Below, in pieces: positions 37,351-49,579 of a stretch of DNA of 64,000 nucleotides (the stretch's first letter is position 1; each line of letters starts with the position of its first letter). This DNA is from Metabacillus rhizolycopersici (GTDB lineage Bacteria; Bacillota; Bacilli; Bacillales; Bacillaceae), in contig NZ_JAIQUM010000011.1 of the NCBI RefSeq assembly GCF_020075705.1, forward strand, positions 50,272 to 114,271, written 5' to 3'. The position numbers and the translations under genes are program-made. The notes below the pieces were generated by a model. It had not been told where the DNA came from. It ran no database searches and saw nothing but the letters and a program-made list of their open reading frames with translations.

Positions 37351-37395
37351 CTCATTTACTTGTGATACGGTTCTCCATGATATATTTAAATGAGG
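37351..37395 (-). repeat. rlmH-type attachment site A (outermost)
   Basis: Core 37356-37376 reads GEPYHK-stop on the minus strand (GGAGAACCGTATCACAAG then TAA). Flanking arms CCTCATTTA and TAAATGAGG make it a hairpin. A broken gene lies just outside it. Confidence 0.85.
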
Positions 37396-37477
37396 TTTTG
37401 CTTATTCATTTAAGCAGCCATCGGATAGGTTGCTATATACAGAATAGTAAGGAAATATTTTCAAATTCCCCAGTTCA

Positions 37478-37849
37478 TTATTTTAGATGTTCATTTAGAA
37501 CGTTCTCTTCCAAGACATCAAATGTATCGCCATACACTTTGATAATGTGTTTTTCTCCCCAAGTGCAAAGCGAATTTAAGATACCTTGTAAGCTCCATCC
37601 ATATTCACTTAACTCATATTCCACTTTTGGAGGAATTTGATTATAAACAATTCTATTAATGACTCCATCTACCTCTAATTCACGTAATTGTTGAGTTAAC
37701 ATCTTCTGTGTAATATCTGGCATAAGACGTTTCAATTCACTTGTTCGTTTCTTACCGTGTGTTAGATGGCATAGAATTACACATTTCCACTTTCCCCCTA
37801 TCACTTCCAGTGTCGCTTCTACTGAAATATTGTATTTCCTTTTCTTCAT
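37478..37849 (-). CDS. HxlR-family transcriptional regulator
   Basis: 123 residues. Winged-helix core CPVEATLEVIGGKWK-like opening (here SVEATLEVIGGKWKCVILCH), LKRLMPDITQKMLTQQLREL and PPKVEYELSEYGWSL are classical HxlR. The ATG at 37849 has GGAGGA upstream; the open frame extends 50 codons further through the operator region and is not used. It lacks the usual N-terminal Cys-Pro. Divergent from an MFS efflux gene, it probably represses that gene and the reductase. Confidence 0.9.
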   Translation of the reverse strand: MKKRKYNISVEATLEVIGGKWKCVILCHLTHGKKRTSELKRLMPDITQKMLTQQLRELEVDGVINRIVYNQIPPKVEYELSEYGWSLQGILNSLCTWGEKHIIKVYGDTFDVLEENVLNEHLK

Positions 37850-37875
37850 ATTATAGTTCCTCCTCATGTATAGGA

Positions 37876-37912
37876 ACTTAAAAGTACCTATAGTACTTTT
37901 AAGTACGTACTT
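37876..37912. promoter_or_regulatory. HxlR operator region
   Basis: A perfect palindrome ACTTAAAAGTAC-CTATA-GTACTTTTAAGT (37876-37904) overlaps a second one, AAGTACGTACTT (37901-37912). HxlR proteins bind GTAC-containing dyads of this kind upstream of their own divergent genes. Confidence 0.8.
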
Positions 37913-38031
37913 CTCTATTGATTTTATATGTATCATAATAGCATTTATCGGTTGAGTTTTAATGTAATTATTTTTTAGTTTACTTAAAACAAGATCGTTC
38001 ATACATTACCAAATTATTAAGGAGGAGAAAA

Positions 38032-39243
38032 ATGTCTTTAGATAAAAAACAAAGCACATTAGCACTGTTAGCCTTAGCTATAAGTGCATTTGCAATAGGA
38101 ACAACTGAATTTATCAGTGTAGGGCTATTACCATTAATAGCAAATGATTTACAAATATCTGTTACGACAGCAGGCTTAACAGTTTCCTTATATGCATTAG
38201 GAGTAACATTTGGGGCACCGATTCTAACATCCATTACTTCTAGTATGTCACGAAAATCATTACTACTTTGGATTATGGTTATTTTTATAATAGGCAATAG
38301 TATTGCTGCTAGTTCGACAAGCATTGGTGTGTTACTTGTTGCTCGTGTTATTTCTGCCTTTTCACATGGAGTTTTTATGTCCATTGGCTCTACCATCGCT
38401 GCAGATTTAGTACCAGAAAATCGAAGAGCTAGTGCCATATCCATTATGTTTTCAGGACTCACGGTAGCCACTGTAACAGGTGTACCATTGGGAACATTTA
38501 TTGGACAACAATTTGGTTGGAGAATGGCCTTTATCATCATCATTGTCGTTGGAATTATAGCCTTAATCGCGAATAGTATCCTGATTCCATCTAGTTTACG
38601 AAAAGGTACTCGTACAACGTTTCGTGATCAATTCAAATTAGTGACAAATGGTCGCTTATTACTTTTATTTATGATTACTGCCTTAGGTTATGGAGGAACA
38701 TTCGTTGTCTTTACTTATCTATCACCGATGCTACAGGAAATAACAGGATATAAAGAAGGAACAGTTGCTGTGATTCTTCTTGTATATGGTATTGCGATCG
38801 CTATTGGCAATATGGTAGGTGGAAAGCTGTCTAATCGCAATCCGATTAGGGCATTATTTTACATGTTTATTGTACAAGCGGTGATACTATTTATTCTGAT
38901 GTTTACGGCACCATTTAAAATAGCAGGATTGATGACCATTTTCTTAATGGGGGTTCTGGCTTTTATGAATGTGCCGGGATTACAAGTGTATGTGGTCATG
39001 TTAGCAGAACGATTTGTACCGACTGGAGTAGATGTGGCGTCAGCCATCAATATTGCTGCATTTAACGCTGGAATTGCAATTGGATCCTACTTAGGTGGTA
39101 TTATCACGGACTCTATTGGACTGATTCACACCTCTTGGGTAGGAGCACTTATGGTACTGATAGCTGCCATCCTTGCAGGTTGGAGTGCATCTCTTGAAAG
39201 AAAAGACCAAAAAGGGGATAAATTGAAGGAGGTGGTTTCCTAA
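38032..39243 (+). CDS. MFS efflux transporter (YdhP/AraJ type)
   Basis: 403 residues, 12 helices, DHA1 class: GTTEFISVGLLPLIANDL, motif VARVISAFSHGVFMSIGSTIAADLVPENRRA and GVPLGTFIGQQFGWR. GGAGGAG stands right before the ATG. Members export purine ribosides, arabinose or drugs. In one cassette with the HxlR regulator and the reductase. Confidence 0.9.
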   Translation: MSLDKKQSTLALLALAISAFAIGTTEFISVGLLPLIANDLQISVTTAGLTVSLYALGVTFGAPILTSITSSMSRKSLLLWIMVIFIIGNSIAASSTSIGVLLVARVISAFSHGVFMSIGSTIAADLVPENRRASAISIMFSGLTVATVTGVPLGTFIGQQFGWRMAFIIIIVVGIIALIANSILIPSSLRKGTRTTFRDQFKLVTNGRLLLLFMITALGYGGTFVVFTYLSPMLQEITGYKEGTVAVILLVYGIAIAIGNMVGGKLSNRNPIRALFYMFIVQAVILFILMFTAPFKIAGLMTIFLMGVLAFMNVPGLQVYVVMLAERFVPTGVDVASAINIAAFNAGIAIGSYLGGIITDSIGLIHTSWVGALMVLIAAILAGWSASLERKDQKGDKLKEVVS

Positions 39244-48278: not shown

Positions 48279-48400
48279 AACGTGCTGGGTAACTACGGCG
48301 TATTGGCTGTTGAAATGGAAAACAACGGCCGAGGAAAGGCAAACTACCTTTAATGACATGGTTCTGATTGCATTAGAATCCTTATTATCATAATTACTTA

Positions 48401-48435
48401 AAAAAGGCAGTGGGAGCGAACCACTGCCTTTTAAT
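48401..48435. terminator. Terminator after nupC
   Basis: AAAAGGCAGTGG pairs with CCACTGCCTTTT around a 7-base loop; works in both directions. Confidence 0.88.
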
Positions 48436-48637
48436 AATGTAACCTCATTAACAGACCTTTAATTTCCTCATCAAGCATTAATGTTTCTTCAAATTTTTTC
48501 GTACTCTTCGCTAAAGCAATATCATGATAAAAAAAGTCTGCAAAGAATTTGACAAAGGGCTTTGATTTGGTAATCATAGAAAAGCAAATTTCATTAAAAA
48601 ATCCCCCTACTAAACACAGGGATAATTTAATAACCAT
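48431..48637 (-). CDS. Small hypothetical protein (doubtful)
   Basis: A 68-codon frame whose downstream 48 codons (MITKSKPFVKFFADFFYHDI, ALAKSTKKFEETLMLDEEIK) look protein-like, but there is no good ribosome site. It overlaps the end of the metallo-beta-lactamase gene by about 10 bases. Could be a remnant. Confidence 0.3.
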   Translation of the reverse strand: MVIKLSLCLVGGFFNEICFSMITKSKPFVKFFADFFYHDIALAKSTKKFEETLMLDEEIKGLLMRLHY

Positions 48638-49487
48638 TTACAAAGTCGGCGATTGTTTCCCTTTCGTCTTCTGTAAGTTCCCTTTTTACGTACTTTTCGT
48701 ATTCCTCAATTATTTTCTGTTTATCACCACCGTAAATATCTGTATATTTTGCAATGGTTCTAAGCTTAGCAGCTTCCTTATTAAATTCCTCTTTTGAAAT
48801 CGGCTTTTGATGCGAAGGTATATATGTATCTGCATCAAATAATTCTAATTCATCTAATAGCCGTAGTGTTTCCTTGATTGTATAGTTTTCTTTTTCGGAA
48901 AAAATATCAGGATAAATGCAGTCACCAAGAAAGAGAATCTTTTCTTCTTCGATATACACGATTACTGAATCTGCAGCGTGATCCCCTCCAACGTGTTGTA
49001 CGATACAGGTTACCCCACCAAGGTCAATTTCCACTCGCTTTTCAAAAGTTAAATCCGGCAAGACAATCGTGATATCTCGGTGATCCGTGAATTCCTCCTT
49101 AATTGCATTCGCACAAAATTCAATTTCCGATCCTTCTTTCACTCGTGCATCTAATGCCTCGTCTGACCATGAAAGCGGGATTAGCTTCTCCATTTCTTTT
49201 TTTGTTTCTTTGGAAGCAATAGAAACTGTATTAGGTAATGCTGAAAGACCAAAGATATGATCCCAATGCCAATGAGTAAGAACAACCATATCAGGATTGG
49301 GGACCTCTCTTTTTAAAAGTTCTTTCAGAAAATAATTTGCATGGTCTTCCGAGTTGCCTGCATCAATCATTAATGTCTTGTTATTGCCCACCACCATCCC
49401 TAGAATGGGCCGGTCCGTCACCGATATTGGAGTGATATACCAAAAACTCTTACCTATTTTGTTAATTGAGTGCATAAAGGGCTGCAT
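48627..49487 (-). CDS. Metallo-beta-lactamase-fold hydrolase
   Basis: 286 residues. The metal motif HWHWDH (LTHWHWDHIFGLSA) and downstream VGGDHAADSVIVY, LGDCIYPD and SHQKPI fit the MBL fold with two metals. A start at 49475 (MHSINKIGK) is as likely as 49487. Substrate unknown. Last gene before rlmH. Confidence 0.88.
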   Translation of the reverse strand: MQPFMHSINKIGKSFWYITPISVTDRPILGMVVGNNKTLMIDAGNSEDHANYFLKELLKREVPNPDMVVLTHWHWDHIFGLSALPNTVSIASKETKKEMEKLIPLSWSDEALDARVKEGSEIEFCANAIKEEFTDHRDITIVLPDLTFEKRVEIDLGGVTCIVQHVGGDHAADSVIVYIEEEKILFLGDCIYPDIFSEKENYTIKETLRLLDELELFDADTYIPSHQKPISKEEFNKEAAKLRTIAKYTDIYGGDKQKIIEEYEKYVKRELTEDERETIADFVNGY

Positions 49488-49558
49488 CCTTTTTTTTATA
49501 ATATTTTAAGTCGAATAGCGGTTGTTTACTCATAGAGGAATTTCTCAAAAAACTGCCT

Positions 49559-49579
49559 CTATTTATGGTAAGGTTCCCC
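49559..49579 (-). repeat. rlmH 3' end: parental attachment site
   Basis: Codons GEPYHK-stop with stop TAG (ACCTTACCATAAATAGAGG). The six downstream copies end instead in AAG-TAA-ATGAG. This is the position used by SCC elements in staphylococci. Confidence 0.88.

Follow-up and report, generated by a model that had tools for sequence, protein, structure and literature searches.

A 64,000-nucleotide stretch of the Metabacillus rhizolycopersici genome (contig NZ_JAIQUM010000011.1, positions 50,272 to 114,271; in its full length, the window) was examined around rlmH, a gene whose 3' end recurs several times in the DNA that follows it. We consider it probable that the 12.2 kb downstream of rlmH are a head-to-tail array of six intervals bounded by attachment (att) sites, at least two of which recur site to site elsewhere, and that these cassettes were inserted singly by a CcrB-like recombinase acting in trans.

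Site copies at and beyond the end of rlmH

Searching the window with GGNGARCCNTAYCAYAARTRR (up to two mismatches) returned seven copies between positions 37356 and 49579, all on the minus strand, i.e., in the orientation of rlmH. Chance would supply 0.03 copies as judged from 100 dinucleotide shuffles, none of which reached seven. Six copies are exact and one (41574–41594) has two mismatches; with up to four mismatches allowed, eight weaker matches (three or four mismatches) were added, four on each strand. From rlmH outward, adjacent sites are separated by 2942, 2216, 1340, 1487, 1167, and 3051 bp. These results agree with a preliminary description of this DNA, which had reported seven copies of the rlmH 3' end at these places, in the orientation of the gene and with such spacings. 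The same description gave every copy the C-terminal codons GEPYHK-stop, which is correct for six of the seven (the copy at 41574 reads SESYHK-stop), and a likeness extending beyond the codons, which proved uneven: the full inverted repeat CCTCATTTA ... TAAATGAGG is present at copies 43081 and 37376, its right half is exact and its left half is not at 40427, near-forms of the right half occur at 46637 and 44421, and neither half is found at the rlmH end or at 41594. All seven copies contain the core TAYCAYAA, and two (46637 and 43081) the exact TATCATAA, the core definition given in the accessible part of PMC6222049. No Rfam family matched positions 37000–50200 at E 0.1. About 18 kb past the array, at 19675 on the minus strand, there is also a site-like sequence with three mismatches, possibly marking where an older and larger insertion zone ended.

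The comparison comprised 95 sources (1.85 Mb, one genome per species): the window, 20 of 21 Metabacillus-group loci taken to about 20 kb (G095 was omitted), and 74 of 80 rlmH loci from other species, the remaining six being replaced by longer versions. These 80 loci are the best by likeness of their RlmH to that of the window and not a random sample. Across the sources, 185 sites (those of rlmH itself included) lie on the rlmH strand versus one on the opposite strand, and insertion at the 3' end of rlmH was observed in the relatives as in the window. At least one interval follows rlmH in 47 of the 95 sources, at least two in 24, and at least three in six, the longest arrays being those of Metabacillus bambusae (seven intervals), the window and G083 (six each), and G090 (five). 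When 80 whole genomes were searched, the core pattern matched 204 times, 80 of these matches being rlmH, and the backwards-read pattern matched twice. By hand count, 63 of the 124 non-rlmH matches lie within 60 kb downstream of rlmH on the same strand and one lies near it on the other strand; the remaining 60 are either more than 60 kb distant or not on the rlmH contig. Some of these distant sites may be due to broken assemblies, and others belong to secondary arrays. The repeats are not placed at random relative to rlmH, downstream of which extra sites are enriched. The proposed tie of the extra sites to rlmH needs qualifying for the 60 distant ones, several of which lie in secondary arrays.

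Both chromosomal and plasmid-borne secondary arrays frequently begin with a site resembling the final 8–11 codons of rlmH (e.g., FRINGDEPYHK), with no rlmH upstream. By eye, this mimicry is present in six of ten first sites (L133:4197, L134:8703, L136:7771, L141:10922, L142:4136, and L145:11268), which we read as pseudo-attB sites.

Recurrence of whole cassettes between genomes, and their cargo

Arrays were compared with each other by blastn, keeping matches on the same strand of at least 400 bp and at least 75% identity; one between-array table gives 70 of 388 rows, and some figures below apply to the matches listed. Seven of the 262 matches kept, representing three different cassettes, are bounded by sites on either side in each of the two genomes, versus none in 500 random placements. 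Match ends fell at non-rlmH sites 21 times, versus 0.05 expected under random placement. Specifically, a radical-SAM cassette is third in the window, second in Metabacillus bambusae, and third in G083 (94–95% identity); among the matches listed, the copy in L104 is 94.2% identical to that of the window while the rlmH genes are 75.2% identical. A 1.2-kb membrane-protein cassette is fifth in the window, third in G090, and fourth in Ectobacillus panaciterrae (85–87%). A 3.0-kb cassette stands directly at rlmH in Bacillus sp. V59.32b (L075) and is the fourth interval in G090 (L114), the two copies being 98.0% identical and the respective rlmH genes 75.2% among the matches listed. Its flanks differ on both sides between these genomes, and the switch falls at the core. 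This cassette encodes a PEP-mutase family protein, Ada, an HhH-GPD glycosylase, and an O6-methylguanine methyltransferase. The end of the second window cassette is likewise found next to a site in L114 (88.3% identity over 257 bp).

Two further comparisons concern insertion next to rlmH. In L008, a 3.2-kb interval (whose second site has two mismatches) separates rlmH from a stretch that abuts rlmH in L053 (85.6% over 118 bp). In Domibacillus, the flank that directly adjoins rlmH in L043 is separated from it in L045 by a 5.4-kb recombinase unit (96.1% identity over 259 bp), i.e., a filled and an empty site. Gene order and content at the repeats vary among relatives and are not invariant.

One cassette was found on a plasmid: among the matches listed, a Peribacillus asahii plasmid cassette (L141) corresponds from site to site to a cassette of the rlmH-contig array of G051 (L135), with 93.0% identity over 1152 bp. 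A 61-bp site query matched nine plasmid records, and four of the five that were read hold at least two sites (up to three mismatches). Plasmid-borne sites would thus offer one route between cells. A plasmid search with window positions 37340–44440 returned 110 records, none covering more than 80% of the query; the 20 among the matches listed correspond to the reductase, MFS, and regulator genes of the sixth cassette. The 3.0-kb cassette returned 16 plasmid records with coverage of at most 22%, one of them by the site alone. Phages were considered as carriers and set aside, as a 61-bp site query had no match in 50,697 phage records at E 1. On a 24-kb plasmid of Heyndrickxia oleronia (L142), a spore-germination ger operon lies between two sites (4136–8168); among the matches listed, G015 (L137) has a copy next to a site, with 84% identity over 4.0 kb.

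The window cassettes hold one to three genes each, in mixed directions (Table 1). A relic end arm lies inside cassette 4 at 42122 (minus strand), and because of it this interval is possibly two fused cassettes. By eye, we take the membrane protein of cassette 5 to be DoxX-like. Among 30 hand-picked cargo proteins of other cassettes (29 from chromosomal intervals, one from a plasmid), 25 have a Pfam hit at E 1e-6. Cargo families elsewhere include FecCD, nitroreductase, GGDEF, histidine kinase, MFS, DEAD-box helicase, and Roc-COR LRR GTPase, as well as AIPR, GmrSD, NERD, amine oxidase, and an alkylation-repair set. Judging from their order and translations, the genes upstream of rlmH presumably represent the htrA-walJ-yycI-yycH-walK-walR end of the Bacillaceae chromosome. 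Cassette 2 contains a dispersed repeat of about 214 bp (46117–46330), found in many places of the Metabacillus group with about 73–95% likeness among the matches listed; it folds strongly (z -4.5) and has no Rfam match.

Table 1. Site copies and cassettes of the array, in window coordinates
Feature	Position	Strand	Content and remarks
rlmH with chromosomal attachment site opening the array	49559..50107	-	site in the last codons (49559-49579); open reading frame ends in RINRGEPYHK; nearest RlmH among the loci kept is that of Metabacillus bambusae (94% identical)
att copy 2	46617..46637	-	pattern search, exact
att copy 3	44401..44421	-	pattern search, exact
att copy 4	43061..43081	-	pattern search, exact; with CCTCATTTA/TAAATGAGG arms
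att copy 5	41574..41594	-	pattern search, decayed (two mismatches, SESYHK)
att copy 6	40407..40427	-	pattern search, exact
att copy 7, far end of the array	37356..37376	-	pattern search, exact; with CCTCATTTA/TAAATGAGG arms
Cassette 1	46638..49558		metallo-beta-lactamase-fold hydrolase (48627-49487, -), NupC-type nucleoside transporter (46992-48278, +); arm pairing weak, score 5.0
Cassette 2	44422..46616		7TM-PAS-GGDEF diguanylate cyclase (44431-46008, -); arm pairing weak, score 4.0
Cassette 3	43082..44400		radical SAM/SPASM protein (43154-44149, -); whole cassette site to site in L101 (94.9%) and L104 (94.2%)
Cassette 4	41595..43060		S4/RsuA-type pseudouridine synthase (42197-42904, +) and debris; arm pairing weak, score 5.0
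Cassette 5	40428..41573		176-aa membrane protein (40741-41271, +), no Pfam hit; whole cassette site to site in L017 (86.7%) and L114 (84.9%)
Cassette 6	37377..40406		aldo/keto reductase (39251-40159, +), MFS transporter (38032-39243, +), HxlR regulator (37478-38002, -); paired TAAATGAGG/CCTCATTTA arms, score 13.0

Paired ends, candidate recombinases, and rival explanations

Across 90 intervals from the 95 sources, the arms at the two ends of one interval are more complementary (7.64) than permuted pairs (6.33), with none of 2000 permutations as high. The arms include recognisable classes, namely class A (TAAATGAGGTTT/AAACCTCATTTAG) and class B (ACAAAGTT or ACATGGTT plus the inverse). Class A arms occur at both ends of 30 intervals, at the start only of 21, at the end only of four, and at neither end of 35 (Fisher 2e-6), and class B arms at both ends of seven, the start only of two, the end only of five, and neither end of 76 (Fisher 3e-6); related cassettes among the 90 intervals make these counts less than independent. 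Inverted repeats at both unit ends are thus a tendency of the whole set, and are weak in cassettes 1, 2, and 4 of the window. Six of the 90 intervals were marked by hand because they contain a complete CcrB-like gene. The other 84, which have a median length of 2.6 kb and stand six or seven in a row at most, include 29 class A intervals. Class B cassettes of 1.2–1.3 kb without a recombinase stand beside class B recombinase units of 5.8–7.0 kb.

The larger elements at the rlmH site in relatives carry recombinases of mostly 500–590 residues, and the four tested contain Resolvase, Recombinase, and zinc-ribbon domains. CcrB was the best NCBIfam model for all 15 recombinases tested (172–426 bits, far below the curated cut-off of 900). 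With one recombinase as the query and E 1e-60, a CcrB-like relative was found in 21 of the 80 genomes searched (of the 95). For 20 of the 21, the best hit shares a contig with rlmH and lies no more than about 24 kb from it, and for the last it is on a 12-kb contig bearing a site. The class A enzyme (64–100% identical) was found only in G002, G013, G071, and G086 among the 80 genomes, and the elements of these four have class A arms (in G013, the end arm alone is on the contig). A class A recombinase is encoded at L131:4838-6553 in Bacillus sp. PS06. When 20 of the 25 recombinase frames were placed on a tree (two partial duplicates of genes already present and three second recombinases were omitted), arm class needed four changes, which is the minimum and was not reached in any of 200 shuffles; this result is weakened by arm classes having been assigned by eye, by near-copies that inflate the test, and by the overlap, in several classes, of the recombinase frame with the arm (the protein sequences were truncated at residue 520).

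The reading frame of the CcrB-like recombinase often crosses the att core and ends within antisense rlmH (or, in L045, the far flank), with its last residues encoded by the target; examples are L011:10446-12035, L113:17424-18977, L040:10376-12127, and L045:14350-16059. Integration and excision would then alter the C-terminus of the recombinase, a possible direction switch. A repeat inside dsiB is reported, in the accessible part of PMC3146451, for a relative of the Dehalococcoides islands. Some class C enzymes are accompanied by a further CcrB-like recombinase that is shorter, with about 505 residues (L040:12197-13717, L060:13897-15408, and L019:18010-19521), an arrangement that recalls the CcrA/CcrB pair.

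These observations suggest the following mechanism. Two cassette ends would recombine to give a circle, in which the arms form a dyad att site. The circle would enter at the rlmH core TAYCAYAA and push older cassettes away, and the newest cassette would adjoin rlmH. We infer entry at this anchor because the 3.0-kb cassette at rlmH in L075 and the L008/L053 pair fit it. The recombinase would read the arms, and hence move any cassette of its arm class, since recombinase clades match arm classes. It would come in trans from another, larger element, such helpers being visitors, because no CcrB-like gene was found in the window or in most genomes with at least four sites. Transfer of cassettes between cells would occur by transformation or by means of plasmids that bear rlmH-like secondary sites. 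Capture of DNA in many small SCC-like steps (SCC, staphylococcal cassette chromosome), as the preliminary description envisaged, is supported by the site-to-site sharing between different flanks, the paired end repeats, and the CcrB-like recombinases at the same site in relatives. The advice to look for Ccr recombinases was borne out in those relatives and not in the window.

Several points weigh against this reading. The arms of cassettes 1, 2, and 4 of the window pair poorly (scores 4–5), and class A arms are absent from both ends of 35 of the 90 intervals and present at one end of 25; it may be that some intervals have decayed or are false. No site with up to two mismatches was present in the 9–14 kb read around homologues of the cassette 2 gene (four genomes, L121-L124) or of cassette 6 (three genomes, L125-L127), and therefore such genes live outside cassettes too. 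The GGDEF homologues of cassette 2 in L121-L124 lie about 43–82 kb downstream of rlmH among the matches listed, and are perhaps the source from which this cassette was made. The 64-kb window holds no CcrB-like gene: the clear search match is a frame of 43 residues lying antisense to the end of rlmH, where the tail of some such recombinases is encoded, and the other is weak (E 0.004, at 11556). No CcrB-like gene was found at E 1e-60 in 59 of the 80 genomes, nor in 11 of the 13 genomes with at least four core hits (it is present in G002 and G049 only). Array genomes without it (G001, G017, G051, G067, G083, and G090) have other large serine recombinases away from rlmH, and another enzyme may move the cassettes; it is the shared arms that suggest action in trans. 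A recombinase resident in array-rich genomes was also considered and rejected. PF07508 had no match in 17 of 50 and 9 of 45 genomes (including G006, G015, G024, G033, G039, G047, G066, G075, and G079), and PF00239, searched in ten array-bearing genomes, matched mostly resolvases of about 200 residues, none beside rlmH among the matches listed.

Alternatively, the array could be what is left of large, recombinase-bearing SCC-like elements that lost their cores by deletion, so that the remnants are no longer mobile units. Such erosion would fit the larger CcrB-bearing elements at the same site in relatives, the decayed site 41594 and the relic arm in cassette 4, a truncated recombinase in the first interval of L106, and the many-site genomes without a CcrB-like gene. 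However, cassettes of 1.34, 1.2, and 3.0 kb recur site to site at 85–98% identity with different neighbours, and a plasmid carries one of 1.1 kb. We regard erosion as unlikely because independent decay would not leave identical-ended short cassettes in different genomes. Less likely still, and by a wide step, is movement purely by homologous recombination of transformed DNA between att repeats or neighbouring cassettes, with no site-specific step. The repeats are alike over about 20–60 bp and several arrays have cassettes in common, as this would require, but such lengths are short for RecA-dependent exchange, and the 3.0-kb cassette is flanked on one side by rlmH in one host and by a class B cassette in the second, and on the opposite side by cassettes that are unlike each other, the change occurring at the core. 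The idea that the repeats are shared transcription terminators draws on the class A copies, in which CCTCATTTA...TAAATGAGG is followed by T-runs. We reject it as highly improbable: terminators need neither rlmH codons in the loop nor a single orientation (185 versus 1), and would not bound units common to several genomes.

Site-specific insertion of single cassettes remains our preferred explanation. Beyond it, we lean, by a modest amount, towards a Bacillaceae integron-like system at the end of rlmH, in which tiny recombinase-free cassettes of several arm classes would be stacked and swapped between genera by visiting, class-matched CcrB-like helpers, with plasmids bearing rlmH look-alike docking sites as ferries.

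Relation to known elements

SCC units as a rule carry ccr and measure tens of kb. On the one hand, the available portions of the published accounts of SCC, including composite and ccr-less islands, describe the same rlmH 3'-end target, the core TATCATAA, end inverted repeats, and tandem insertions. On the other hand, the 84 intervals not flagged for a whole CcrB-like gene differ from SCC in their small median size and in standing up to six or seven in a row. No unit in the window carries a ccr gene, and those in the larger units of relatives score below the CcrB cut-off; the window units are therefore not SCC elements proper. They are bounded by putative att sites and have no integrase of their own, as expected of cis-mobilizable elements. 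Integron arrays consist of small units, each with an end site, next to one anchor, with accessory genes and the recombinase outside the units. The window array resembles them as a row of small site-bounded units beside one anchor, at which entry would take place. In contrast to integrons, with their IntI tyrosine recombinase and attI, its anchor is the end of a protein gene (rlmH) and its candidate enzymes are serine recombinases. We therefore file the array as a variant of cassette-chromosome elements working like an integron array.

Target, core, recombinase class, tandem insertion, and units without an integrase are already known, as far as the accessible text of the papers cited here goes. 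In Staphylococcus stepanovicii, an SCC region is split by 15-bp direct repeats (PMC4723332). The Enterococcus cassette chromosome (ECC) targets rlmH with CcrAB, has a 50-bp att with dyad, and shows multiple attR in 16 of 32 cases; however, ECCs measure 21–78 kb with ccrAB, and tandem ECCs with several ccrAB sets were not directly seen there (PMC6222049). Large-serine-recombinase islands with Pol-SSB genes in Bacilli lie mostly downstream of rlmH, some being composites with more than one rlmH-end repeat, and empty sites are given for three, one of which is a C. difficile ssrA island (PMC10061031). They share the site and recombinase class of our elements, but were chosen for their primase genes, and the accessible text does not describe recombinase-free cassettes of one to three genes or sharing of cassettes across species (PMC10061031). 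The Dehalococcoides ssrA islands are tandem units at one gene end, with a CcrB-like integrase (DsiB) next to attL, and 15 units without an integration module were termed possible cis-mobilizable elements; the relative with the repeat inside dsiB is on a deep-sea fosmid (PMC3146451). These islands differ in target (ssrA), organism, cargo, and end repeats, and single-unit exchange between genera is not described in the text available (PMC3146451).

The suggestion that nothing of the kind had been described in Bacillaceae must accordingly be narrowed, since islands that carry large serine recombinases at rlmH in Bacilli are published, including some in which the rlmH-end repeat occurs more than once (PMC10061031). 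Within the accessible literature, which covers few subscription papers and no preprints, we found no description of arrays of recombinase-free, one-to-three-gene rlmH cassettes in Bacillaceae, of site-to-site exchange of single cassettes between genera, or of a match between recombinase clade and arm class. If our reading is correct, the family of SCC would have an everyday, integron-like mode in Bacillaceae that uses serine recombinases, and small cassettes for repair, transport, signalling, and possibly defence would be traded between species at one chromosomal address. This would suggest how recombinase-free SCC-like pieces can form and spread, and would make it a testable question whether the arm class of a cassette decides which recombinase may move it.

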